Part shown: one piece after another, positions 11,854-50,887 of the stretch | Position numbering within the stretch: the stretch's first letter is position 1 | How the letters are laid out: the number at the start of each line of letters is the position of its first letter | IMG/VR virus record: IMGVR_UViG_3300035698_002459 | Coordinates: 1 to 50,887 of that record | Strand: one strand, 5' to 3' | From: a virus | DNA: 50,887 bases | Notes under the pieces: generated by a model | Seen by the model: only the letters and a program-made list of their open reading frames with translations | What the model was told of the DNA's origin: nothing | Database searches by the model: none | Made by a program: the position numbers and the translations under genes

Positions 11854-13416
11854 ATGGAATTAACTAAACAATTTAAAGCAAGAGAAATAAAGAGATCTAG
11901 GAATCCTAAGTATTTCATCACAAACTATGTCTATATCCAGCATCCAAAGCAGGGCAAGATCCTCTTTAAAACTTGGGACTTTCAAAATAACGCCTTGGAT
12001 GATTTCAGAGACCACCGGTTTAACATAATATTAAAAAGTAGGCAGTTGGGCCTATCCACTTTGATATCGTCGTACATCCTTTCGATGATGCTTTTTAACA
12101 AGAACAAGAAAATCGCAACTGTCTCAATCAAGAGAGAGGACGCGGTAGATATTATTGAAAAGATTAAGTACGCCTATGACAATCTTCCCGAATGGATGAA
12201 GAAAATCTCTGGTATTAAAACGGACAATGTTTTCATATTTGCTTTAGAGAATGGGTCAAGAGTGACCGCGACTGCCACGACTGCCAACATTGCCCGTGGG
12301 CAATCTCTAAGTCTCCTGTTCATCGATGAGGGCGCCTTTATTGATGGCTTAACGGAAGCTTGGGCGTCAGCCTGGCCTACGCTATCAACAGGCGGGTCGG
12401 CTATCATTAACAGCACTCCAAACGGTGCTGGTGGATTCTTCTATGATATGTGGAAAGACGCAGAAGAAGGCAACAACGACTTCCATAACATCCTTCTTCC
12501 TTGGGATATACACCCAGAGCGTGATCAAGAGTGGTACGATAGCACCAAACGAAACATGTCTAGGGTTAAGTTTGCACAGGAATATGAGTGCGACTTCACC
12601 TTGTCTGGGGACACAGTCATATCACCAGAAGTTATCAAGCTTCTGAAATCTGAAGTTAAGGAGCCGGATTATAAATGTGGTCCAGCCAACAACTTATGGA
12701 TCTGGGAAGACTATGATTATTCTTCAAACTACATTCTTACAGTCGATACTGCTAGAGGCGACGGTGCAGACTTTTCAGCCTTCCATGTCGTTAATACAAG
12801 CACTGTTGAGTGTGTTGCGGAATTTAAAGGGAAGGTTACTGTAGATATATTTTCTGACCTTGTGTTTGACACTGGTTATAAATATGGTATCTGTCTTGTT
12901 ATCCCAGAGAACAACAGCATGGGCAACACATTGATTGAGAAAATGATTACGAAGGAATATCCAGCTTTATTCTATTCAGAGAAGTCAACATACAAGTATG
13001 TAAACCAGTTCGAAGCAGAGGGCAGGGATGATGTGGTTCCCGGCCTCTTCGTTAATGTTAAGACCAGACCATGGTTAATTTCTAAATGGGAAGAATACAT
13101 GAGAAATGGCGCCTACAAGACATATTCTTCTAGATACATAACCGAGCTTGAGAATTTTGTTTACAAGAACGGCAAGCCACAATCCAGAAAGGGAAAGAAC
13201 GACGACCTAGTTATCTGTGCAGCATTAGCATGTTGGGTCAGAGACACAGCGTTATCCGTCAACCGCAGAGACGTTGAGTTCAAGAAACAATTTTTAAATT
13301 CAATTAAACGAACGAATTCGATATTTAACAGTGATTTAGTAGCGCAACCGCCACAGTTCAAATACAGAGGAACTGATGGAGTATACAGAGACTATTCTTG
13401 GCTAATAAAGGGATGA
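11854..13416 (+). CDS. terL: Terminase large subunit (gp17-like)
   Basis: The 520-residue protein is the DNA-packaging motor. The ATPase has a Walker A-like LKSRQLGLST (60-69), Walker B SLLFIDEGAF (153-162; Asp158, Glu159) and the coupling motif STPNGAGG. The C-terminal RNase H-fold nuclease has TVDTARGDGAD (Asp298), VIPENNSMG (Glu352) and KNDDLVICAAL for the third acidic residue. The variant P-loop without Lys directly before Ser/Thr is a known T4-group form. It is somewhat shorter than T4 gp17 (610 aa). It is followed by the portal gene after 10 bases, the usual order for head genes. Confidence 0.93.
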   Translation: MELTKQFKAREIKRSRNPKYFITNYVYIQHPKQGKILFKTWDFQNNALDDFRDHRFNIILKSRQLGLSTLISSYILSMMLFNKNKKIATVSIKREDAVDIIEKIKYAYDNLPEWMKKISGIKTDNVFIFALENGSRVTATATTANIARGQSLSLLFIDEGAFIDGLTEAWASAWPTLSTGGSAIINSTPNGAGGFFYDMWKDAEEGNNDFHNILLPWDIHPERDQEWYDSTKRNMSRVKFAQEYECDFTLSGDTVISPEVIKLLKSEVKEPDYKCGPANNLWIWEDYDYSSNYILTVDTARGDGADFSAFHVVNTSTVECVAEFKGKVTVDIFSDLVFDTGYKYGICLVIPENNSMGNTLIEKMITKEYPALFYSEKSTYKYVNQFEAEGRDDVVPGLFVNVKTRPWLISKWEEYMRNGAYKTYSSRYITELENFVYKNGKPQSRKGKNDDLVICAALACWVRDTALSVNRRDVEFKKQFLNSIKRTNSIFNSDLVAQPPQFKYRGTDGVYRDYSWLIKG

Positions 13417-13426
13417 GTGGCAATAA

Positions 13427-15502
13427 ATGAGACAACCAACAATTCTAAAGCGGAGAAGAAATAACCCGTATAATACAGCTTCCCCCCTTTATAAAAGGCT
13501 GACCAGACTATTAAGTGGTCCGATTACCAATTATAAACAGCAGAACATGAGAATTGGTCGAAAGAAAGATCTCGACAAATACAAGTTCAAATCTGCTAGT
13601 GGAAAAGCCTTCAAGAAAAGTGGTTCTTATAACCCGTTCAAAGAGATCCAGGCTGGCGCATTGGCGAATGCCTCTCGCGCAGAGCGATACATGGACTTTG
13701 ATCAGATGGAATTCACCTCTGAAATTGCCTCCGCTTTGGACATCTACGCTGACGAAATAACAACCTATACGCAATTTGCACCTCTTCTCAAGATTACATC
13801 TCCGAATCAAGAGATAACAGAAATCTTAGAGTTTCTTTTTTATGAAGTTCTAAACATTGAATTGAATGCACACGTTTGGACACGTACCGCATGTAAATAC
13901 GGAGACCTTTTCTTGTACCTCGATATAGACAACGAGAATGGAGTCACAAACGTAATTGGACTACCACCGGCAGAAGTTGAAAGACTTGAAGGCGAAGACC
14001 CCACCAATCCAGATTACGTCCAATTTCAGTGGAACGCCGGGGGCTTGACATTTGAGAACTGGCAAATTGCACACATTCGAATCCTTGGAAATGACAAGTA
14101 TGTTCCTTACGGTTCGTCTGTTCTGGAGGGCGCTCGGAGAATTTGGAAGCAGTTGAATCTTCTTGAGGACGCTGTGATGGCGTATCGTATTGTCAGATCT
14201 CCAGAAAGAAGAGTATTCAAGATCGACGTTGGAGGTATTGACCCTAAAGATGTACCCGCGTACATGGAGCAGGTTAGGACCGAACTGAAGAGAAATCAGA
14301 TTGTTGACCCCGATACTGGCCGAGTCGACCTGAGATATAATCCTCTTTCAATCGAAGAGGATTACTTCATCCCCGTAAGAAAGGGAGACTCATCCGAGAT
14401 CTCTACTCTTGCTGGTGGCAAGTACACTGGTGATATCGATGATATTAAATACTTTAGAGATAAGCTCTTTACTGCCCTAAAGATTCCAGCCTCGTATCTA
14501 TCTCAAGGAGATGGAACAGAGGAAAGGAGTTCTTTAGCTCAGAAAGATATTATGTTTGCAAGAACAATCTTGAGAATCCAAAGCACAATCTCTTCAGAAC
14601 TTAGAAAGGTTGCGATTATCCACCTTGCGACACTTGGATACAAAGGGAAGGACTTGCTCAATTTTGATCTGTCTTTCCATAATCCATCAAGAATCTCAGA
14701 ACTTCAAGAACTTGAATACATGAGAACCAAATTTGCGGTTGCCATCGAAGCAAAAGATCTATTCTCCGACTCTTGGATTTCTAAGAAAATCTTCGATATG
14801 TCAGATGACGAGATTATTAGAAATAGAATTGAGAAGTTTACCGATGTTAAGTTCGATGTATCTCTTGAGTCCTATCTGGAAACGGGTGGGGAGATGGATG
14901 CAATGGGCGGCATGGGCGGGGGCGGCATGGGTCCACCCGAGGGCTTGGCAGGGCCAGGCATGGACATGGGCGGGGCAGAAGGGGGCGCTGACGGGGCAGA
15001 TGGACCAGAGACCACCCTTGCATCCATTCCCACCGATGATGACATAGCAGCGCTGTCAGGCGAGCCACGCAAGGGCGCTTTGTCCAAGGTCCACGATGAC
15101 GCCAAGAGACAATCAAAGCCTTCAAAATTATCCACGCAACCTCAAGCAAGAGGAAAGGAACGTTCGAAGTTGAAGCCTGGACACGACAATAGACGCGCAG
15201 ATGGCCCACGACAAAGAACCAGAAAGGCTGCTGGTGGAGCATTCCTAGCGAACCCAAGTTTGGAAGATATTTTTGCAGGGATGAACAATGGCTTGCAGAA
15301 TTTGACCAAAAATGTATGGGAAGGAAAAGAGAAAACTGAGGAAGATATTGATGAAGCGATCTTACAAGAAATATCTTTAAGAATTAAAACTACATTAGCT
15401 GACAAAAAAGATCTAATTAATGAAAGAATCTCAGAGTTAAACAAAAATAACAGAGAGAAAAACGACACAATAGAGTTGGAAGCCGAATCTGATGATACAT
15501 AA
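13427..15502 (+). CDS. 20: Portal protein (gp20-like)
   Basis: The 691-residue protein matches T4-type portals throughout its first 480 residues. Examples are the crown/wing region with IEEDYFIPVRKGDSSE (about 309-324), KYFRDKLFTALKIP and QKDIMFARTILRIQS. Portals form the dodecameric channel through which TerL packs DNA. T4 gp20 is 524 aa; here about 200 residues are added at the C-terminus. That extension starts with a Gly/Met-rich, GC-rich stretch (about 487-525), then a basic linker, then a charged helical end. The 3' end overlaps the next gene by 11 bases. A segment of this protein is repeated as a separate mini-gene at 17043. Confidence 0.92.
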   Translation: MRQPTILKRRRNNPYNTASPLYKRLTRLLSGPITNYKQQNMRIGRKKDLDKYKFKSASGKAFKKSGSYNPFKEIQAGALANASRAERYMDFDQMEFTSEIASALDIYADEITTYTQFAPLLKITSPNQEITEILEFLFYEVLNIELNAHVWTRTACKYGDLFLYLDIDNENGVTNVIGLPPAEVERLEGEDPTNPDYVQFQWNAGGLTFENWQIAHIRILGNDKYVPYGSSVLEGARRIWKQLNLLEDAVMAYRIVRSPERRVFKIDVGGIDPKDVPAYMEQVRTELKRNQIVDPDTGRVDLRYNPLSIEEDYFIPVRKGDSSEISTLAGGKYTGDIDDIKYFRDKLFTALKIPASYLSQGDGTEERSSLAQKDIMFARTILRIQSTISSELRKVAIIHLATLGYKGKDLLNFDLSFHNPSRISELQELEYMRTKFAVAIEAKDLFSDSWISKKIFDMSDDEIIRNRIEKFTDVKFDVSLESYLETGGEMDAMGGMGGGGMGPPEGLAGPGMDMGGAEGGADGADGPETTLASIPTDDDIAALSGEPRKGALSKVHDDAKRQSKPSKLSTQPQARGKERSKLKPGHDNRRADGPRQRTRKAAGGAFLANPSLEDIFAGMNNGLQNLTKNVWEGKEKTEEDIDEAILQEISLRIKTTLADKKDLINERISELNKNNREKNDTIELEAESDDT

Positions 15503-16825: not shown

Positions 16826-17056
16826 ATGAAGATTAAGATGCCGAAAGAGCAATTTGAAGCTATTTTAAAAGAAGAGATTGCAAAGTTTATCGAGGAAAAA
16901 ACTGACATTCACCTGGGTCCAGAAGATGGGTCAGGTAGCAGTATGCCAGGGATTGACCCAGAAGGTGGAGCGTCAAACGACTTCCACCAAATCCCTCCAG
17001 AGGATCTAAACCGACTACCAGAGGATGAAGAAGAAGGGACAGATGAAGAAGTATAG
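16826..17056 (+). CDS. Small acidic protein, positional analogue of prohead core gp67
   Basis: This 76-residue protein has a helical N-terminus (EQFEAILKEEIAKFIEEK) and an acidic, Pro/Gly-rich C-terminus ending in a Glu/Asp run. T4 gp67 is an 80-residue prohead core protein with an acidic tail, encoded between portal and protease genes. The analogy rests on size, charge and position, not on residue matches. The gene overlaps the portal mini-gene by 14 bases. Confidence 0.45.
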   Translation: MKIKMPKEQFEAILKEEIAKFIEEKTDIHLGPEDGSGSSMPGIDPEGGASNDFHQIPPEDLNRLPEDEEEGTDEEV

Positions 17057-17195
17057 CCCAATACAGATAGAAGAAGATTACTTCATCCCTGTTCGGAACA
17101 GAGACAGAACGTCCGCAGAAGACGTGGAGTATTTCAGAAACAAACTGTTCGACGCGTTGAAGATCCCAAAGAAATATTTGGAAGAGGAAGAATGA
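17043..17195 (+). CDS. Portal-fragment mini-gene (50 aa)
   Basis: ATG 17043 to TGA 17195 encodes 50 residues whose core, IEEDYFIPVR then VEYFRNKLFDALKIPKKYL, closely matches residues of about 309 to 360 of the portal protein encoded at 13427. The portal's loop between these two blocks is shortened by about a dozen residues. The frame is intact, starts and stops by overlap with both neighbours (14 bases upstream, 4 bases with the protease start), and has diverged at the DNA level from the portal copy. This suggests an old duplication that is maintained. Possible roles are a portal-interacting peptide or assembly regulator; it could also be a harmless remnant. Confidence 0.75.
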   Translation: MKKYSPIQIEEDYFIPVRNRDRTSAEDVEYFRNKLFDALKIPKKYLEEEE

Positions 17196-17827
17196 TGAAG
17201 AAGTTCCTGATCAGAGAGAATTTTATATTAGAAGGCAAAAATGTAAGAACAGATCTGCTTACGGAACAGGACCAGAGATTCATTGACCAAGGTGGAACCG
17301 TTCTTGCTGGAGTAATGCAAAGAGCAGATTCTATCAACGGGAATGGAAGAATATATTCCAGGTCACTCTTGGAGAGAGAGCTTGAAAACTATCAAGTTCT
17401 GATCCGAGAGAATCGAGCTTATGGAGAATTAGATCACCCAGAGTATGCAGAGATCAAGCTTGAGCATACTTCTCACAGAGTGACAGAGATTGGTTGGGAC
17501 GGGGATGATGTAGTGGGAAAGATTATGCTTGCCCCACATCCGAGTAAAGGTGCCATAGCCAAGGCGATACTAGATATTGGTGGGATAATAAGCATCTCGT
17601 CAAGAGGTCTCGGGTCGGTAACAAAGGAAGGGAATAGAACGGTTGTCAATGATGACTTCCAATTGATTTGCTTCGACCTTGTTACGGAGCCGTCCACAGA
17701 CAGGGCTCACATGATGAGAGAAATGAAAGAAATTGAAGTCGGAGATAAAACATATTTTCACATCTCTAAAGACCAAATACCAAAGAGTCATCGTATTTAC
17801 TCACTAATTGATGACATACTATTATAA
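17192..17827 (+). CDS. 21: Prohead maturation protease (gp21-like)
   Basis: The 211-residue protein matches the T4 gp21 serine protease family in length (T4: 212). It has GVMQRADSINGNGRIYS near 40, the catalytic His in GELDHPEYAE (His82) and the serine region IISISSRGLGS (Ser136/Ser137). It cleaves head proteins after Glu in an (L/I)xE context once the prohead is built. Candidate target sites are visible in the capsid protein and in the next gene's product. ATG 17192 overlaps the mini-gene stop; ATG 17195 is an alternative start. Confidence 0.92.
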   Translation: MMKKFLIRENFILEGKNVRTDLLTEQDQRFIDQGGTVLAGVMQRADSINGNGRIYSRSLLERELENYQVLIRENRAYGELDHPEYAEIKLEHTSHRVTEIGWDGDDVVGKIMLAPHPSKGAIAKAILDIGGIISISSRGLGSVTKEGNRTVVNDDFQLICFDLVTEPSTDRAHMMREMKEIEVGDKTYFHISKDQIPKSHRIYSLIDDILL

Positions 17828-17836
17828 GGAATTGAT

Positions 17837-18319
17837 ATGAAGAAAGAACTTTTTAAAGATATAATCAAAGAAGCATTAAGGGAAATATTACAAGAAGATT
17901 TGTATAAAATCATAGGTAGTATCCTCGACTCTTCGCTGAAGCCTCTCATCGAAGGAAGGGCTCTGCCAACACCAAGACGCAGCACCTCCCAGTTAGAGGT
18001 TGTTGCAGAGTCAAAATATGCAGAGGAAGATGCAGCAGTCCTTTCTCTATTCGCTAAACAGAGAGCAGCGGACGCATCCACCAACATATCAGCAGCCTCT
18101 GTAGACAAGAACAGCTTGATGGCGAAGATTCTCCAAGAGTCTCGGGCAGGCGAAAACTTGCAAACGACTTCTGATCATCCTGAAAGCCTTGCGGGATTGG
18201 TGTCAAGCTCAGGTCCAACTCCAAAGGGAGCAGTCAATGAAGATTTGGTACTAAACGATCCGGTTCTCAAGAAGGCATTCCTTTTCAATCAGAAACTGAT
18301 GAATAAGAAGAGAGGATAG
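17837..18319 (+). CDS. Probable prohead internal/core protein
   Basis: The 160-residue protein has a helical, amphipathic N-terminus (KELFKDIIKEALREILQ) like T4 core proteins. Residues 37-40 read LIEG, a perfect match to the gp21 cleavage consensus (L/I)xE before Gly/Ala. After this site the sequence becomes Ala/Ser-rich with low hydrophobicity. Together with its place directly after the protease gene this suggests an internal head protein trimmed during maturation. No named family recognised. A ribosome site AAGGAATTG precedes the ATG. Confidence 0.45.
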   Translation: MKKELFKDIIKEALREILQEDLYKIIGSILDSSLKPLIEGRALPTPRRSTSQLEVVAESKYAEEDAAVLSLFAKQRAADASTNISAASVDKNSLMAKILQESRAGENLQTTSDHPESLAGLVSSSGPTPKGAVNEDLVLNDPVLKKAFLFNQKLMNKKRG

Positions 18320-18320
18320 A

Positions 18321-18560
18321 GTGAGTTCAGTAGTAAATGTTGAAGTAAGAAGAAGAGAAAATGAACCGATCGAAAGACTGATCAAGAGATTCAAGAAGAA
18401 AGTCTACAAAAGCGAAGTTCTAAAAGACGCTGTTAAAAAGTCTCGCTTTCAGAAAAAGTCTGATAAACTCAGAGAAAAGAAAAGAGATGCAAAACGCCTC
18501 ATGGCGAAAAACGAACGAAAACAAAAAATACAAGAATTGAAAAGAAAAAGACGCAGATAA
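18321..18560 (+). CDS. rpsU: Ribosomal protein bS21 homologue
   Basis: The 79-residue, strongly basic protein matches bacterial bS21 along its length. It has VVNVEVRRRENEPIERLIKRF (compare the bacterial V-x-V-RENEP-x(6)-RRF pattern), then the helix KKKVYKSEVLKDAVKKSRF and the Lys/Arg-rich C-terminal helix. bS21 sits on the 30S platform beside the 3' end of 16S rRNA and affects start-site selection. A phage copy could replace the host protein and bias initiation. It starts at GTG one base after the previous stop and lies among head genes, so it is expected to be expressed late. Phage bS21 has been reported in other large phages. Confidence 0.85.
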   Translation: MSSVVNVEVRRRENEPIERLIKRFKKKVYKSEVLKDAVKKSRFQKKSDKLREKKRDAKRLMAKNERKQKIQELKRKRRR

Positions 18561-18587: not shown

Positions 18588-19052
18588 ATGTCAGCAAATC
18601 ATGGTTATCACGTCGGTACAAAACCCGGTGTCGGGAACACCCCATCATATCAATCTTCGGGAACCCCCTGGTCGACAGGAAGTTTTATCGGAGCAACAGA
18701 CTATTGGGTCAAGGTTACCTTTCCGAAGGTTACCAAGTCATTCACTGTCATTAACAAAGATCCACAGCAGCTTCACCCTTCCGGTTCCATTACTGGTGGA
18801 CAAGCTATCTATGTCTTCTTCGGACCAGAACCTTCTTCAAGTTTAGGTTTGCCGGAAGCAGTTGAGACAAACCACTTCACGACACTACCCGCTCTGGACG
18901 ACTCATTTACTTTTGATGTCAAATGTAAAGAGTGTTTCATCGGACAGTATACCCCATCTGGAACAGGGTCGTTCCAGATTGTAGCAGAGCTTACCAGTAT
19001 TGATACTGCCGAAATGTTTCCACTATCTGGTACTGGCTACAACCAATATTAA
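18588..19052 (+). CDS. Probable virion surface (decoration) protein
   Basis: This 154-residue protein is Gly/Ser/Thr/Pro-rich and beta-rich, with no charged helices, as typical of small capsid decoration or fibre domains. Recognisable blocks are the Ser/Gly-rich N-terminus (GTPWSTGSFIGATDYWVKV), FPKVTKSFTVIN, and a late pair of cysteines in VKCKECFIG. The ribosome site AAGGAAG lies upstream. It lies between bS21 and other surface-like genes. The assignment is by composition and position only. Confidence 0.4.
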   Translation: MSANHGYHVGTKPGVGNTPSYQSSGTPWSTGSFIGATDYWVKVTFPKVTKSFTVINKDPQQLHPSGSITGGQAIYVFFGPEPSSSLGLPEAVETNHFTTLPALDDSFTFDVKCKECFIGQYTPSGTGSFQIVAELTSIDTAEMFPLSGTGYNQY

Positions 19053-19416: not shown

Positions 19417-19845
19417 ATGATACCACGGAAAAGAAGAATCAAACGACAATGCCAAATAGAATCAGGTATGACAAGCGATGTTCCATACAATACTCGATTT
19501 AATTACTATCTAAACAAAACGAATTACGGCAGAAATAGGGAAGAATTAAAAGAAGACAACGTAACAGATGCAGACCTTCTAGCCATTTACATGTACTTCC
19601 TTGATTATAGCACGTTGCTTGGGAACAAATCTTGGTTTGGAGCAAATGAAGCAGCCGATTATTGGGGGGCTCCGTCTGCAATAGCCTCCCTGTTTGATGG
19701 GGCTACGCCATTTACCATGGCAGCATGGTTCAGGCTACCGTCCAATGTCGTTCACGGTTCTTCTATCTGGTCTCTGGGTACATCTGGAACCGGGTATACA
19801 ACTCATGTCTTGTCAAACGAAACTATCCAATCTGGATGGATTTAA
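19417..19845 (+). CDS. LamG/concanavalin-like protein, N-terminal half (frameshifted)
   Basis: The 142-residue frame has a basic N-terminus and then the beginning of a LamG-type jelly roll: FDGATPFTMAAWFRLPS and SSIWSLGTSGTG. It stops at TAA 19843-19845 in the middle of the domain. The next strands continue in the +1 frame immediately afterwards, so the two frames together make one LamG domain, typical of sugar-binding tail or head fibres. A ribosome site GGAGATAT precedes the ATG. Confidence 0.6.
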   Translation: MIPRKRRIKRQCQIESGMTSDVPYNTRFNYYLNKTNYGRNREELKEDNVTDADLLAIYMYFLDYSTLLGNKSWFGANEAADYWGAPSAIASLFDGATPFTMAAWFRLPSNVVHGSSIWSLGTSGTGYTTHVLSNETIQSGWI

Positions 19846-20293
19846 TGCTGGAAATATGGCCGCCGCTGCACAATCAACAGAAGTTTGGCATTCCATTATG
19901 GTCAAACACGGAGTACTAGATGGCGAGATATGGATTGATGGAGTCTCGGCAGCTACTACAACTGCGAATGCAGTGGACAGAACTTATACCAGTCTCACAG
20001 TTGGGCAATACAGGTCAGGCGATGGAAGTGTTTATTATGGTGAAGGGCATTTGTTCGAAATGGCAGTTTGGTTAGACACAGAACTCACGATAAGCGACGC
20101 CGTTGCCTACCACAATAGTGGTATCGCTGGTGACGCTAGAATCCTCGTATCTAACCCTGGCCTATACTGGCGTATGGCTGATGCGGTTGGAACCCCGTAT
20201 GTAGTTCCAAATGCTGGCAGCATTGCCAACGCTGATTTAACAGCACAAGCATCTATCGTCTCCGGTGACTTAGTCACGGTAATTCCTGCATAA
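19805..20293 (+). CDS. LamG/concanavalin-like protein, C-terminal half (frameshifted)
   Basis: This frame carries the second half of the LamG domain: STEVWHSIMVKHG, GEIWIDGVSA, YTSLTVGQYRSGDG and GEGHLFEMAVWLDTEL. It ends with a Gly/Ala-rich tail. ATG 19805 is the first reasonable in-frame start but has no good ribosome site and lies inside the first half, so independent translation is unlikely. Either a +1 frameshift near ATT TAA T (19840-19846) or a sequence/assembly indel joins the two halves. If neither applies, the gene is broken. Confidence 0.5.
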   Translation: MSCQTKLSNLDGFNAGNMAAAAQSTEVWHSIMVKHGVLDGEIWIDGVSAATTTANAVDRTYTSLTVGQYRSGDGSVYYGEGHLFEMAVWLDTELTISDAVAYHNSGIAGDARILVSNPGLYWRMADAVGTPYVVPNAGSIANADLTAQASIVSGDLVTVIPA

Positions 20294-20368: not shown

Positions 20369-21475
20369 ATGTCTGCCACCATGCTTGATCAAGTTATAAT
20401 CGATGCAAAACAATTAAGAGAAGTTGCGCTTAAAACCGCAGAATCCACTCTTAAGGAAAAGTACGCATCGGAATTTGAGAAAATGTATCTTACAGAGTTG
20501 AGCGACGAAGAGGATGCCGAGGAAGCCCCAGTTGTCGATCCAGATGAGATTGGGGCTGGGGAAGAGGCAACCCTTCTGCACGATGGTGAAGAAGCTCCTG
20601 AAGGTCCTTCGATGGAAGCCCCTGGCGACGAGTTTAATATGGGCGACTTCGGAAATAACGAAGAGGACGCAGAAGCAGAAGCAGAAGCTTCCAACCCAGA
20701 ATTCGTACTAGACCAGTTAGATTTCGCACATGAAGACTCAGATGGTCAGGTTGTTATCGACCTTGGCGACCTTGAGATCGATGAAGACGAAGAACTTGGA
20801 TTAGGCCAAGAGTTGCCCGAAGCAGACTCACTCCCCGGAGCAGAGACCCAAGAAGTCCCGATGCCTCAAGACGAGGAAGCAAATGAAGATGGACAAGCCG
20901 AAATGGCCAACCATGATGACGAAGATTACTTATCAACTGAATCACTTGAAAAAATGATGCAGGAACTCTTGTCTGATGAAGACAAGAAAATAAACACACT
21001 TGAAGAACAACTAGAGGAAAAGTGGCTCGCTTCTCTTCAAGTGATTAAAGGGGCACACGAAAAGAAGGTAGCAAAATTAGAAGAAAAAGTTTCTAATTAT
21101 AAAGCGACCTTAAAGGAATCGAAGAATCTTAACTTCGAATTAACTGAGAGATTGACGACGGCTACTTTAGCAGGACTCAAGCTTTCATATAAAAATAGAA
21201 CTCTGAATGACGATTCACTGAATGAACGGCAGAAACGGAGTATTTGCAAAGCCATCACTGGCGCAAAGAATGCGGATCACGCAAAGGATGTTTACGAAAC
21301 TCTCAAAGAGAATATCATCGGGACTGTTAAAAATGAGTCCCTCAATGAAGCTATCGGCAAGACTTCGAATTCTACTAGGTTTGTGAAGGATTCACCCAAA
21401 GACAATGCAAAATCAACAAACCGCTTGTCTGTGGAAATGCAAAGACTACAACGTCTTGCAGGAATTAATAAATAA
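20369..21475 (+). CDS. 22: Prohead scaffold/core protein (gp22-like)
   Basis: The 368-residue protein lies directly before the capsid gene, the fixed place of the T4 scaffold gene. It begins with a helix (QVIIDAKQLREVALKTAESTL). It then has a very acidic middle (about 49-210) and a coiled-coil region (about 205-265, EEQLEEKWLASLQVIKGAHEKK). It ends with a basic tail ERMQRLQ-like segment (VEMQRLQRLAGINK). Scaffolds of this type guide capsid assembly and are then destroyed by the gp21 protease. It is longer than T4 gp22 (269 aa) because of the acidic part. Confidence 0.75.
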   Translation: MSATMLDQVIIDAKQLREVALKTAESTLKEKYASEFEKMYLTELSDEEDAEEAPVVDPDEIGAGEEATLLHDGEEAPEGPSMEAPGDEFNMGDFGNNEEDAEAEAEASNPEFVLDQLDFAHEDSDGQVVIDLGDLEIDEDEELGLGQELPEADSLPGAETQEVPMPQDEEANEDGQAEMANHDDEDYLSTESLEKMMQELLSDEDKKINTLEEQLEEKWLASLQVIKGAHEKKVAKLEEKVSNYKATLKESKNLNFELTERLTTATLAGLKLSYKNRTLNDDSLNERQKRSICKAITGAKNADHAKDVYETLKENIIGTVKNESLNEAIGKTSNSTRFVKDSPKDNAKSTNRLSVEMQRLQRLAGINK

Positions 21476-21499: not shown

Positions 21500-23320
21500 A
21501 TGTCTGATATTATGACACTTCTGTCTGAAAACGTCGTCATTCGCGACCGTAGAGTAGAAGTTACTAAGATTTCATCTTGGTGGGAGCAAACTGGTCTTCT
21601 AGAAGGACTAGCTGACAGAGACTCTCAGCAGGTTAAATCGAACATTGCGGTTCTCTTAGAGAACCAAAAGAACAACTTGAGAAAGGAATACTTGATCCGT
21701 GAGTCTAGTGCTATGGCTTCTGGTGACGTTACTGGCTTTGCAGCCGTTGCGTTCCCACTTGTCCGTCGTGTTTTCGCGAATCTGGTTGCTAATGAGCTTG
21801 TGTCCGTACAGCCGATGTCGCTCCCTACTGGCCTTATCTTCTACTTGGATTTCCAAGCTGGAACAAATAAGGGTGGAGTCGGCCTTGACCAAAACGCATC
21901 CATCTTCGGTGGTGGCGCTGTAGGTTCCGAGATCGCCCCTGGTATCAGCCTCGCTGGCACCAATGCCGATACTGGATTCTACAACCTTAACACTGGTTAT
22001 GCATCGCCGACTGGTTCTGGTTGGGTAGATGGTGGATATACCGTTCTTGTTTCTGGTACTGTTGGTTCCAACAGCGCCTACAGTTCGGTTCTTGATAAGG
22101 CAGTTAAGTATGACCCGGATCTTTCCGGTGCGTTCTGTGCTGTTGTATCTGTCCCACTTACCACCTTCCAGGGTAACGGAAACAACCTGAATGAGAGAGC
22201 GTATACCTCGATTAACGAAGTTTCGCTAACTGGTTCAGCTACTTCGGGAACTCTAGTCAGAAGACTTACTTCTAGACTAACTGGTTCGACTGGTCTTCCA
22301 AATTCCAGCAACCTTCTGATGGTCTTCTCATCGTCTCTCGCTCACGCGGCAGGCTTGGTAGACTCTGTCGGAACGCTTGGGGAAGAGAAGTTCATGGGAT
22401 CACTGACTGGTACGCTAGTTGATGGTGTCGGCGATTCTATCTCAAGAAAGCTTCTGTTTGCCATCGATGATCAATTCGCGCAGGGATCAGCCCTCGGTTC
22501 GACCATCGGTGACCCAGCATGGGGTCTAGAATTCGGTTCGAATGTTGGTGAGAACGCGGAAATACCGCAAATCGACATTCAAATTGATGCGACAGACATT
22601 ACAGCAATTACCAAGAAACTAAAGGCGCGTTGGACTCCTGAACTTGGTCAAGACCTGAATGCCTACCACAACTTGGATGCTGAAGTAGAACTTACTTCAA
22701 TTCTCTCAGAACTGATTTCCCTTGAAATCGATGTTGAGATTCTTGGAGACCTAGTTCGTCACGCTTCTGCGGGTACTTACTACTGGTCGCGTAGACCGGG
22801 TCGCTTCCTAAACCGTACTACGGGTGAGGTTCTTGCGGCGGCTCTTACTGGTGACTTCACTGGTAACGTCTCAGAGTGGTATCAAACTCTGCTAGAGACA
22901 ATCAATGATGTCTCTGCTCAGATTCACCGTAAGGTTCTGCGTGGTGGAGCGACGTTCATCGTCGCTTCTCCAGAAGTTGCAAACATCCTTGAGTTTACTC
23001 AAGCGTTTGTTGCTACTGTAACGCACGATACTGACTCGGCTGGTTCTGCTGGCGTGCTCAAGGCAGGTACACTGTCGAAGAAGTGGGATGTGTTCGTCAC
23101 ATCATACTTCCCTCGCAACTGTATCCTAGTCGGTCGTAAGGGGTCTTCGGCTCTTGAAACCGGTTATGTCTATGCTCCGTATGTGCCATTGCAAACAACT
23201 CCTGTTGTTCCCGATCCGGTAACCTTTGTTCTGAACAAGGGTGTCATGACTCGGTACGGCAAGAAGATTGTTCGCGCCGATATGTACGGTATCGTTGTTG
23301 TTCAAGACCTATTCGGCTAA
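21500..23320 (+). CDS. 23: Major capsid protein (gp23-like)
   Basis: The 606-residue protein matches T4 gp23. It shows VKSNIAVLLENQK near the N-terminus, FPLVRRVFANLVANELVSVQPM (the start of the HK97-like fold) and PTGLIFYLDFQ. In its C-terminal third it has YVYAPYVPLQTTPVV and RYGKKIVRADMYG. Residues 66-68 read IRE before SS, a plausible prohead-protease site close to the known T4 position (65). A strong GGAGGAATT ribosome site and a terminator directly after the gene fit very high late expression. It is longer than T4 gp23 (521 aa), with Gly/Ser-rich inserted loops between about 110 and 270. Confidence 0.95.
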   Translation: MSDIMTLLSENVVIRDRRVEVTKISSWWEQTGLLEGLADRDSQQVKSNIAVLLENQKNNLRKEYLIRESSAMASGDVTGFAAVAFPLVRRVFANLVANELVSVQPMSLPTGLIFYLDFQAGTNKGGVGLDQNASIFGGGAVGSEIAPGISLAGTNADTGFYNLNTGYASPTGSGWVDGGYTVLVSGTVGSNSAYSSVLDKAVKYDPDLSGAFCAVVSVPLTTFQGNGNNLNERAYTSINEVSLTGSATSGTLVRRLTSRLTGSTGLPNSSNLLMVFSSSLAHAAGLVDSVGTLGEEKFMGSLTGTLVDGVGDSISRKLLFAIDDQFAQGSALGSTIGDPAWGLEFGSNVGENAEIPQIDIQIDATDITAITKKLKARWTPELGQDLNAYHNLDAEVELTSILSELISLEIDVEILGDLVRHASAGTYYWSRRPGRFLNRTTGEVLAAALTGDFTGNVSEWYQTLLETINDVSAQIHRKVLRGGATFIVASPEVANILEFTQAFVATVTHDTDSAGSAGVLKAGTLSKKWDVFVTSYFPRNCILVGRKGSSALETGYVYAPYVPLQTTPVVPDPVTFVLNKGVMTRYGKKIVRADMYGIVVVQDLFG

Positions 23321-49779: not shown

Positions 49780-49988
49780 TGGATGATCTAATAAAAGCAT
49801 TTATTTTACAACAGACCCCACTTTTTGCAAATGATTTGCAGCCTGATGTGAAAAAAGCTGTTAACATTCTGGTGAGCGCGGGATATCTTGGAGATGCTAA
49901 CGATCGGTTTGAGAGAACTGAATCCGGTGATGCCTGGCTAGATGCATTTTATAAAGAGTTGGACAAGGAATTTGAGGGGGAAGAATGA
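49779..49988 (+). CDS. Small uncharacterised protein
   Basis: GTG 49779 overlaps the preceding TAG (TAGTG) and yields 69 residues. The pattern DDLIKAFILQQTPLF, then VKKAVNILVSAGYLG and RTESGDAWLDAFYKEL suggests a small winged-helix-like or helical fold. The end is acidic. It overlaps the next gene by 4 bases. No family recognised. Confidence 0.5.
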   Translation: MDDLIKAFILQQTPLFANDLQPDVKKAVNILVSAGYLGDANDRFERTESGDAWLDAFYKELDKEFEGEE

Positions 49989-50743
49989 GTGATTGGGATT
50001 TTATATATGATACGCCGAAGATGCTAAAGAACGACAACAAAACCCTACGCGCCGAGGTCGACGAACTGAAAGATGTTGCAGCTACGGCTGTGATCCAGTT
50101 GGCCGATACAGAGGCCGAGGTCGCGCGGCTTGAGGGGTTCCTTGCCGACGAGCGGTCCGAGATATTGAGGCTCATGGGGGTACACGAACAGACTAAAGAC
50201 GCCCTCCGCGCCAAGGTCGAGCGGCTGACGAACCTCAACACCTACTTGGTGGAAGATAACGCTCGCCTTGAAGCCGACCTGGAATCAATGACCGCGTCCG
50301 CGACGTCATGGGCCAAGGTTTCCGGTCGTTGCGCCTCTGACTGCGTCGCCCTCCGCGCCGAGGTCGCTGAATGGAAGCGGCGCAACGTGGACGTACTTGC
50401 TGCGTCCAGCCGGCGCTGGGAGGAACGAAACGTCGAGTTTGCCCTGTACGCCGACGACCGGAACGAGGCGCGCGCCGAGGTCGAGCGGCTGCAACCGGCC
50501 AAGCGGCTGGCTGATGCCGCTCTGCGCGAGGGCTTCGACGACCCAGAGACCGGCCTTGTTGCCGCATTTGACGCGATTCGCCGCACGCCGTTGCCTACCG
50601 CGCATCACAGGAGAGCGGCGATGAGTGACAACCCGTACCATCCGAACGACGTGCTGTGGTGGCGCTCGACACGCGCGACTGCTTGCCAGCGCGATGATCT
50701 GATCGCTCTCTGGAGACGTGTACGTCATCGCGACGCTGGTTAG
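49985..50743 (+). CDS. Coiled-coil protein with repeated RAEVERL modules and GC-rich body
   Basis: The 252-residue ORF begins with AT-rich codons like its neighbours (about the first 18 residues). It then turns abruptly GC-rich. The body has at least six copies of a heptad-like unit (LRAEVDEL, TEAEVARLE, LRAKVERL, LEADLES, LRAEVAEW, ARAEVERL), predicting a long coiled coil. Near the end, an AGGAGA followed by ATG at about 50621 could be an independent start for a small gene in the same frame. Function unknown; the base-composition jump suggests transfer from a GC-rich source or a joint in the assembly. Confidence 0.5.
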   Translation: MSDWDFIYDTPKMLKNDNKTLRAEVDELKDVAATAVIQLADTEAEVARLEGFLADERSEILRLMGVHEQTKDALRAKVERLTNLNTYLVEDNARLEADLESMTASATSWAKVSGRCASDCVALRAEVAEWKRRNVDVLAASSRRWEERNVEFALYADDRNEARAEVERLQPAKRLADAALREGFDDPETGLVAAFDAIRRTPLPTAHHRRAAMSDNPYHPNDVLWWRSTRATACQRDDLIALWRRVRHRDAG

Positions 50744-50887
50744 CAGTGTCGGACGTCAGTCGACGCGACACCTACGCGCGAGTCGAGCGGTGAACAGCTC
50801 GCGCATCATCGACCGCGGACATCGACGCGAAAGACGCTCCGCGAGGGGTAGCCTACCGCCAGTCGCGATACTGACAGCGCTCATGCA
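50744..50887 (+). other. GC-rich tail of the window without a visible gene
   Basis: The last 144 bases continue the GC-rich composition of the coiled-coil gene, with many CG dinucleotides. I see no start codon with a ribosome site, no terminator and no repeat beyond short CGCG/GCGCG words. A gene could begin beyond the window. Confidence 0.4.

Follow-up and report, generated by a model that had tools for sequence, protein, structure and literature searches.

The window, which is the whole 50,887-base IMG/VR virus record analysed here, encodes at positions 18321-18560 of the plus strand a 79-residue protein with a GTG start (RENEPIERLIKRF) that is almost certainly a true homologue of the ribosomal protein bS21, and its setting is a T4-like head cluster made up of the terminase large subunit (TerL), portal, protease, p160, bS21, p154, scaffold and Gp23. 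As read from sequence comparison, what appears to be new is the constant place and strand of bS21 across relatives, its apparent, weakly supported descent as one phage lineage, a type distinct from that of Bacteroidia, and an N-terminus devoid of a protease site.

The bS21 gene and its head cluster

The preliminary description had named the product as bS21 and proposed a search against Pfam Ribosomal_S21, in which PF01165 gives 36.1 bits (E 5.2e-9) against a cut-off of 27, bearing the assignment out. TIGR00030 likewise passes its cut-off (31.1 bits against 28.95), PHROG 21469, 'ribosomal protein S21', matches weakly (E 1.3e-3), and phmmer retrieves bS21 chains from the PDB from E 1.7e-4 onwards; it is the single bS21 match in the entire record. 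The core described as running from RENEP to RRF holds at its first end, RENEP being present, but not at its second, which reads KRF. At the position of the EKP(S/T) loop motif the protein has QKKS, with the proline gone, and a lysine replaces this proline in at least seven other phage sequences. Overall it is divergent, at 47% identity to the nearest phage relative and 34% to the nearest sampled cellular bS21.

An AlphaFold2 model, computed with 60 phage sequences as input, has a mean pLDDT of 90.2 and helices at residues 17-31, 33-41 and 46-78. Compared with the PDB by Foldseek, it yields 18 matches at E up to 10, of which the first 16 are bacterial, chloroplast and mitochondrial ribosome entries, their chains taken as bS21 through chain names and sequence search, and the last two are flagellar doublets. 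Owing to the small size of the protein all E-values are weak, the lowest being 0.06; the E. coli chain 4ybb_AU superposes with an rmsd of 1.6 A and a TM-score of 0.81 by target length.

The placement among head genes is confirmed by Pfam, which finds Peptidase_S77, Gp23, Portal_T4 and terminase around the gene. All on the plus strand, the cluster comprises TerL (11854..13416, Pfam and PHROG), the portal protein (Gp20, Portal_T4; 13427..15502, Pfam E 1.3e-75), p267 (start 15492) between the portal gene and p174 (start 16288), p76 (start 16826), the T4 gp21-like prohead protease (Peptidase_S77; 17192..17827, Pfam E 5.4e-23), p160 (17837..18319), bS21, p154 (18588..19052), an acidic, by its position scaffold-like protein (20369..21475) just before the major capsid gene, which matched no Pfam or PHROG family, and the major capsid protein itself (Gp23; 21500..23320, Pfam E 6.3e-69). 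Protease and p160 are separated by 9 bases, p160 and bS21 by 1 base, and bS21 and p154 by 27 bases; a Shine-Dalgarno (SD)-like GAGAGGA at 18310..18316 ends 4 bases before the bS21 GTG. Given this setting and the 1-base gap after the p160 stop, co-expression of bS21 with the head genes is likely. Promoter searches gave no clear signal: the late-promoter-like TATAAATA, at up to 1 mismatch, occurs 68 times in the window, a count that 7 of 100 shuffles reach and that is not clearly beyond chance, and sigma-70-like signals, at 19 against 19.6 expected, show no excess.

Other features of the window were recorded as well. A 56-codon ORF at 17025-17195 overlaps p76, runs into the start of the protease gene and duplicates a piece of the portal (residues 303-360, 47% identity over 58 columns, E 2e-15). 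The ORFs at 19417-19845 and 19694-20293 overlap in different frames and, judged by eye, look like the two parts of a single lectin-like protein that a frameshift has broken. At the right end (49985-50887) the GC content rises from 0.41 to 0.53-0.66, for which a foreign piece, a chimeric contig end and a late insertion are candidate readings.

The neighbours of bS21 had been described as a protease substrate before it and surface genes after it. For the ORF between protease and bS21, 134 loci (some overlapping) with both genes on the plus strand supplied 92 distinct middle ORFs, 76 of which encode 118-180 residues, the window's own not counted; the largest similarity group has 75 members. The N-terminus of this family, typically MKKxEFKxxIKExVKEVLxEE, is helical and basic. 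Against the family profile p160 scores 15.3 bits, the best of 200 shuffles reaching 6.3, and the gene at the corresponding place in Microcystis phage Mel-JY01 scores 47.1 bits. Thus p160 appears to be a divergent member of a conserved family, its kinship being modest since the hhalign alignment covers the first 21 residues only. The cleavage motif of T4-type proteases has the form (L/I)xE. Such a site, with its glutamate at residues 15-26, is found in 71 of the 76 family members (shuffle mean 23, maximum 32), a fraction that reads as conservation rather than as independent events because the members are related. It makes p160 a plausible prohead protease substrate or core protein, so that the first half of the description gains in plausibility. 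According to the excerpted text of PMC9026906, the short motif at which T4-type proteases cut has a glutamate just before the cleavage point, and proteins enter the head by means of targeting peptides. For the second half there is a weak fold hint: p154, a predicted beta protein whose relatives, present at 73 loci, mostly lie no more than 30 bases away from bS21, has a model with pLDDT 76.5 whose best Foldseek match is the Ena2A fibre (E 6e-4, TM 0.35), followed by viral coat proteins, cupins and others, and it is possibly a virion surface protein.

Relatives and descent

Relatives of the window bS21 were reached through a protease query first and then through an alignment. A single-sequence bS21 search of viral contigs returned no relative, nor did tblastn with the window bS21 against 50,697 phage records (E up to 1), and a capsid query matched nothing in viral contigs. 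The protease query led to 53 loci; with three loci left out, the records of 50 were searched with Pfam, and bS21 lies above the cut-off in 44 of them. Among those without it, L033 and L040 break off no more than 700 bases past the protease, and L049-L052 extend to the capsid gene with no bS21 and no detectable p174 or p154. Led by bS21 itself, a scan in which the best 80 of 105 relatives were kept finds the protease in 75 of these 80 loci, always on the same strand and 253-4181 bases upstream of bS21. Three further loci start too near bS21 to show the protease, with scaffold and capsid following, and in L155 and L158 none of the query genes was seen. The fractions 44/50 and 75/80 are not independent, as contigs are partly shared and the bS21 query was built from protease-linked sequences. 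In Flavobacterium phage immuto the head cluster is present and bS21 absent.

Several relatives are of interest in themselves. In seven loci (L039, L041, L044-L046, L048 and L054) which form a subgroup, some 35 additional N-terminal residues, basic in character, precede the bS21 domain. The 484-kb phage LR756508 (L171, record position 169725) has bS21 close upstream of the capsid gene; this bS21 groups with the sequences of phage PAC2 and Pseudomonadota, which hints at a separate acquisition. PBOB01000007.1 (L089), binned in an Acidiferrobacteraceae MAG that has its own bS21 on another contig, matches the IMG/VR phage contig L032 (24,260 bases, bS21 coordinates).

The bS21 tree was built from 139 non-redundant sequences, comprising 96 phage, 19 Patescibacteria-type, 21 Pseudomonadota and 3 others. 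One split without any cellular sequence holds 94 of the 96 phage bS21s, the window and Mel-JY01 included (FastTree support 0.649), the huge phage LR756508 and Pseudomonas phage PAC2 having been left out of this count beforehand. This tentatively suggests that the phage bS21s of these head clusters form a single lineage, a result that is only suggestive because the sequences have about 70 residues and cyanobacterial cellular bS21 is not in the set. In a Mantel comparison of 92 phages, bS21 distances correlate with protease distances (rho 0.305, a value that none of 1000 permutations reached), and weakly so for the window alone (rho 0.18, p 0.08). Strong purifying selection acts on the relatives, in which the median dN/dS of bS21 is 0.053 over 107 pairs from 39 relatives, the window lacking a sufficiently close relative for inclusion.

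The expectation that phylogeny would identify the host clade was not borne out, as the phage bS21s cluster with one another and not with the cellular sequences sampled. If they are indeed one lineage, the sequence of a phage bS21 would not name its host, which serves as a warning for host assignment. A scan of genomes with bS21 motifs, tried as a route to the host, gave five loci, four of them cellular (a Patescibacteria, a Parcubacteria group bacterium and two unspecified bacteria) and the fifth that of PBOB01000007.1, and was rejected; the window is not joined to them in the tree, and the resemblance to Patescibacteria is biased since the scan patterns were derived from phage motifs. The four cellular loci have the same neighbours, which we take to be hisS and YqeY.

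Leader reading and action on the ribosome

In Flavobacterium johnsoniae, as stated in the excerpted text of PMC9976891, the 16S tail is held by bS21, bS18 and bS6 in a way that prevents the reading of SD sequences; the bS21 change Y54A increases translation of strong-SD messages. A takeover of the kind described by Chen et al., in which the host would belong to Bacteroidia and the phage bS21 would mimic that of the host and keep the anti-SD covered, draws some weight from the best isolate matches of TerL (39%) and protease (42%), both in Flavobacterium phages, and from the Bacteroidetes hosts predicted, in the text excerpted from PMC9723584, for published phages with bS21 in the head cluster. 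It is nonetheless disfavoured and judged quite improbable, for the window bS21 has Arg59, hence no aromatic residue, at the position of Tyr54, a correspondence aligned through the Parabacteroides bS21, with the match of 7jil to the phage profile stopping one residue earlier. Among the 96 aligned phage sequences 69 have R and 15 have K at this position, 84 in all, and one has H. The leaders point the same way: counted by one gene-calling rule, SD-like leaders precede 22 of 44 genes in the window (against 16.2% of internal ATGs) but only 3 of 42 in the bS21-less Flavobacterium phage immuto (internal ATGs 21.9%). Mel-JY01 has 17/42 (internal ATGs 7.4%) and Sinorhizobium phage phiM19 17/49 (internal ATGs 11.4%), and an earlier count in the window with a shorter ORF limit gave 26/54 against 16.4%. 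An SD-like leader also stands before bS21 in 65 of 90 relatives. Additionally, the bS21 of Chen et al. is reported to be encoded in the opposite direction to the head genes, whereas that of the window lies on the same strand, as do all 75 of the 75 bS21-led loci with a protease. Judged by Arg59, strand and SD-rich leaders, the window bS21 is not of the Bacteroidia type, and the leaders together with Arg59 make it very likely that SD sequences are read by the host. Conceivably, the host could instead belong to Bacteroidia, with the window bS21 opening the anti-SD for phage messages.

The reading preferred here is that bS21 probably acts on host ribosomes at the time of head-gene expression, with incorporation and message selection extrapolated from other phages. 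Made together with the head proteins, it would enter the host 30S subunit, taking the position of the host bS21, which is loosely bound, and sit next to the 3' end of the 16S rRNA, where it would favour initiation on the SD-led head messages of the phage. The anti-SD would stay accessible, as it is in bacteria that use SD sequences, since an arginine stands where the bS21 of Bacteroidia has the tyrosine that stacks on the anti-SD. Counting against a ribosomal role are the divergence of the protein, the lost proline of EKPS, the weak PHROG match and the missing promoter signal.

The exchange might also inhibit rather than redirect, as ribosomes carrying the bS21 of Pelagibacter phage HTVC008M yielded in vitro about 5% as much protein as the control (excerpt of PMC6375957). 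A phage bS21 that enters the 30S subunit as a poison and lowers host translation, phage messages being less affected or made earlier, is nevertheless unlikely, since that activity was measured in the ribosome of a foreign host, the gene is surrounded by head genes, the products of which are required in large amounts, and its relatives are under strong purifying selection. Packaging of bS21 in the capsid, followed by injection with the DNA and action on ribosomes from the start, was considered possible by Chen et al. (PMC9723584, in excerpt), and it would fit both the position of the gene beside protease, scaffold and a probable core protein and the N-terminal targeting sequences through which T4-like phages package small proteins (PMC9026906, in excerpt). 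Yet an (L/I)xE site at residues 15-26, kept in 71 of 76 p160-family members, occurs in only 2 of 60 phage bS21s (shuffle mean about 10); the window bS21 has none in its first 30 residues, and most bS21s, the window's included, begin directly with the bS21 domain. The rarity of the site makes a packaged bS21 not likely, and we regard this reading as highly doubtful.

Beyond the preferred action on the ribosome, a wider view may be offered as speculation that is improbable as a whole. In this T4-like lineage bS21 would then have ceased to be a gene taken now and again from hosts; it would belong permanently to a head operon with the protease, the p160 family and often p154, and would be passed on along with the head genes in phages that infect different hosts. 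It may act in concert with these neighbours, either as a ribosome factor that gives preference to head messages with SD leaders in any host or as a basic protein that binds RNA or DNA and has been recruited to prohead assembly.

Comparison with known systems

Phage bS21 was, as the preliminary description held, already known from elsewhere (Chen et al. 2022; Mizuno et al. 2019), and the idea of ribosome takeover by it is in print; the window contributes a new, divergent bS21. Cellular bS21s of E. coli, Patescibacteria, Bacillota and Bacteroidota share its profile, fold and basic C-terminal helix, and those in the sampled set are at most 34% identical to it. Mizuno et al. (PMC6375957, excerpted) found the bS21 of HTVC008M in E. 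coli 70S ribosomes by mass spectrometry; the window likewise has a phage-encoded bS21. The excerpted text of PMC7029224 places the bS21 of pelagimyophages in no specific cluster.

The phages of Chen et al. (PMC9723584, as excerpted) are closer in arrangement, with bS21 a few genes from TerL, portal, prohead protease and major capsid protein; of 900 published phages, 310 have the prohead protease no more than 10 genes away from bS21. In lake phages bS21 is highly transcribed along with the head genes, in late expression, and the role proposed is the same. They differ in the opposite strand, the aromatic residue at the Tyr54 position and the predicted Bacteroidetes hosts, where the window has the same strand, Arg59 and SD-rich leaders. 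The window thereby adds a head-operon lineage of bS21 that does not fit the Bacteroidia model of a covered anti-SD.

The cultured Microcystis phage Mel-JY01 (PP395634), on which a literature search found no publication, has its bS21 (WWT39311, annotated RpsU) at the same place as the window. On one strand follow TerL, the next gene, three small genes, protease, a small gene, bS21 and, further on, the capsid gene, and the leaders are similarly SD-rich. Unlike the window, Mel-JY01 has no detectable relative of p154 or p174, and its bS21 is distant from that of the window, with different nearest neighbours in the tree. As a cultured relative with the gene in the same position, it opens the takeover hypothesis to testing in a phage-host pair that can be grown in culture and uses SD sequences.
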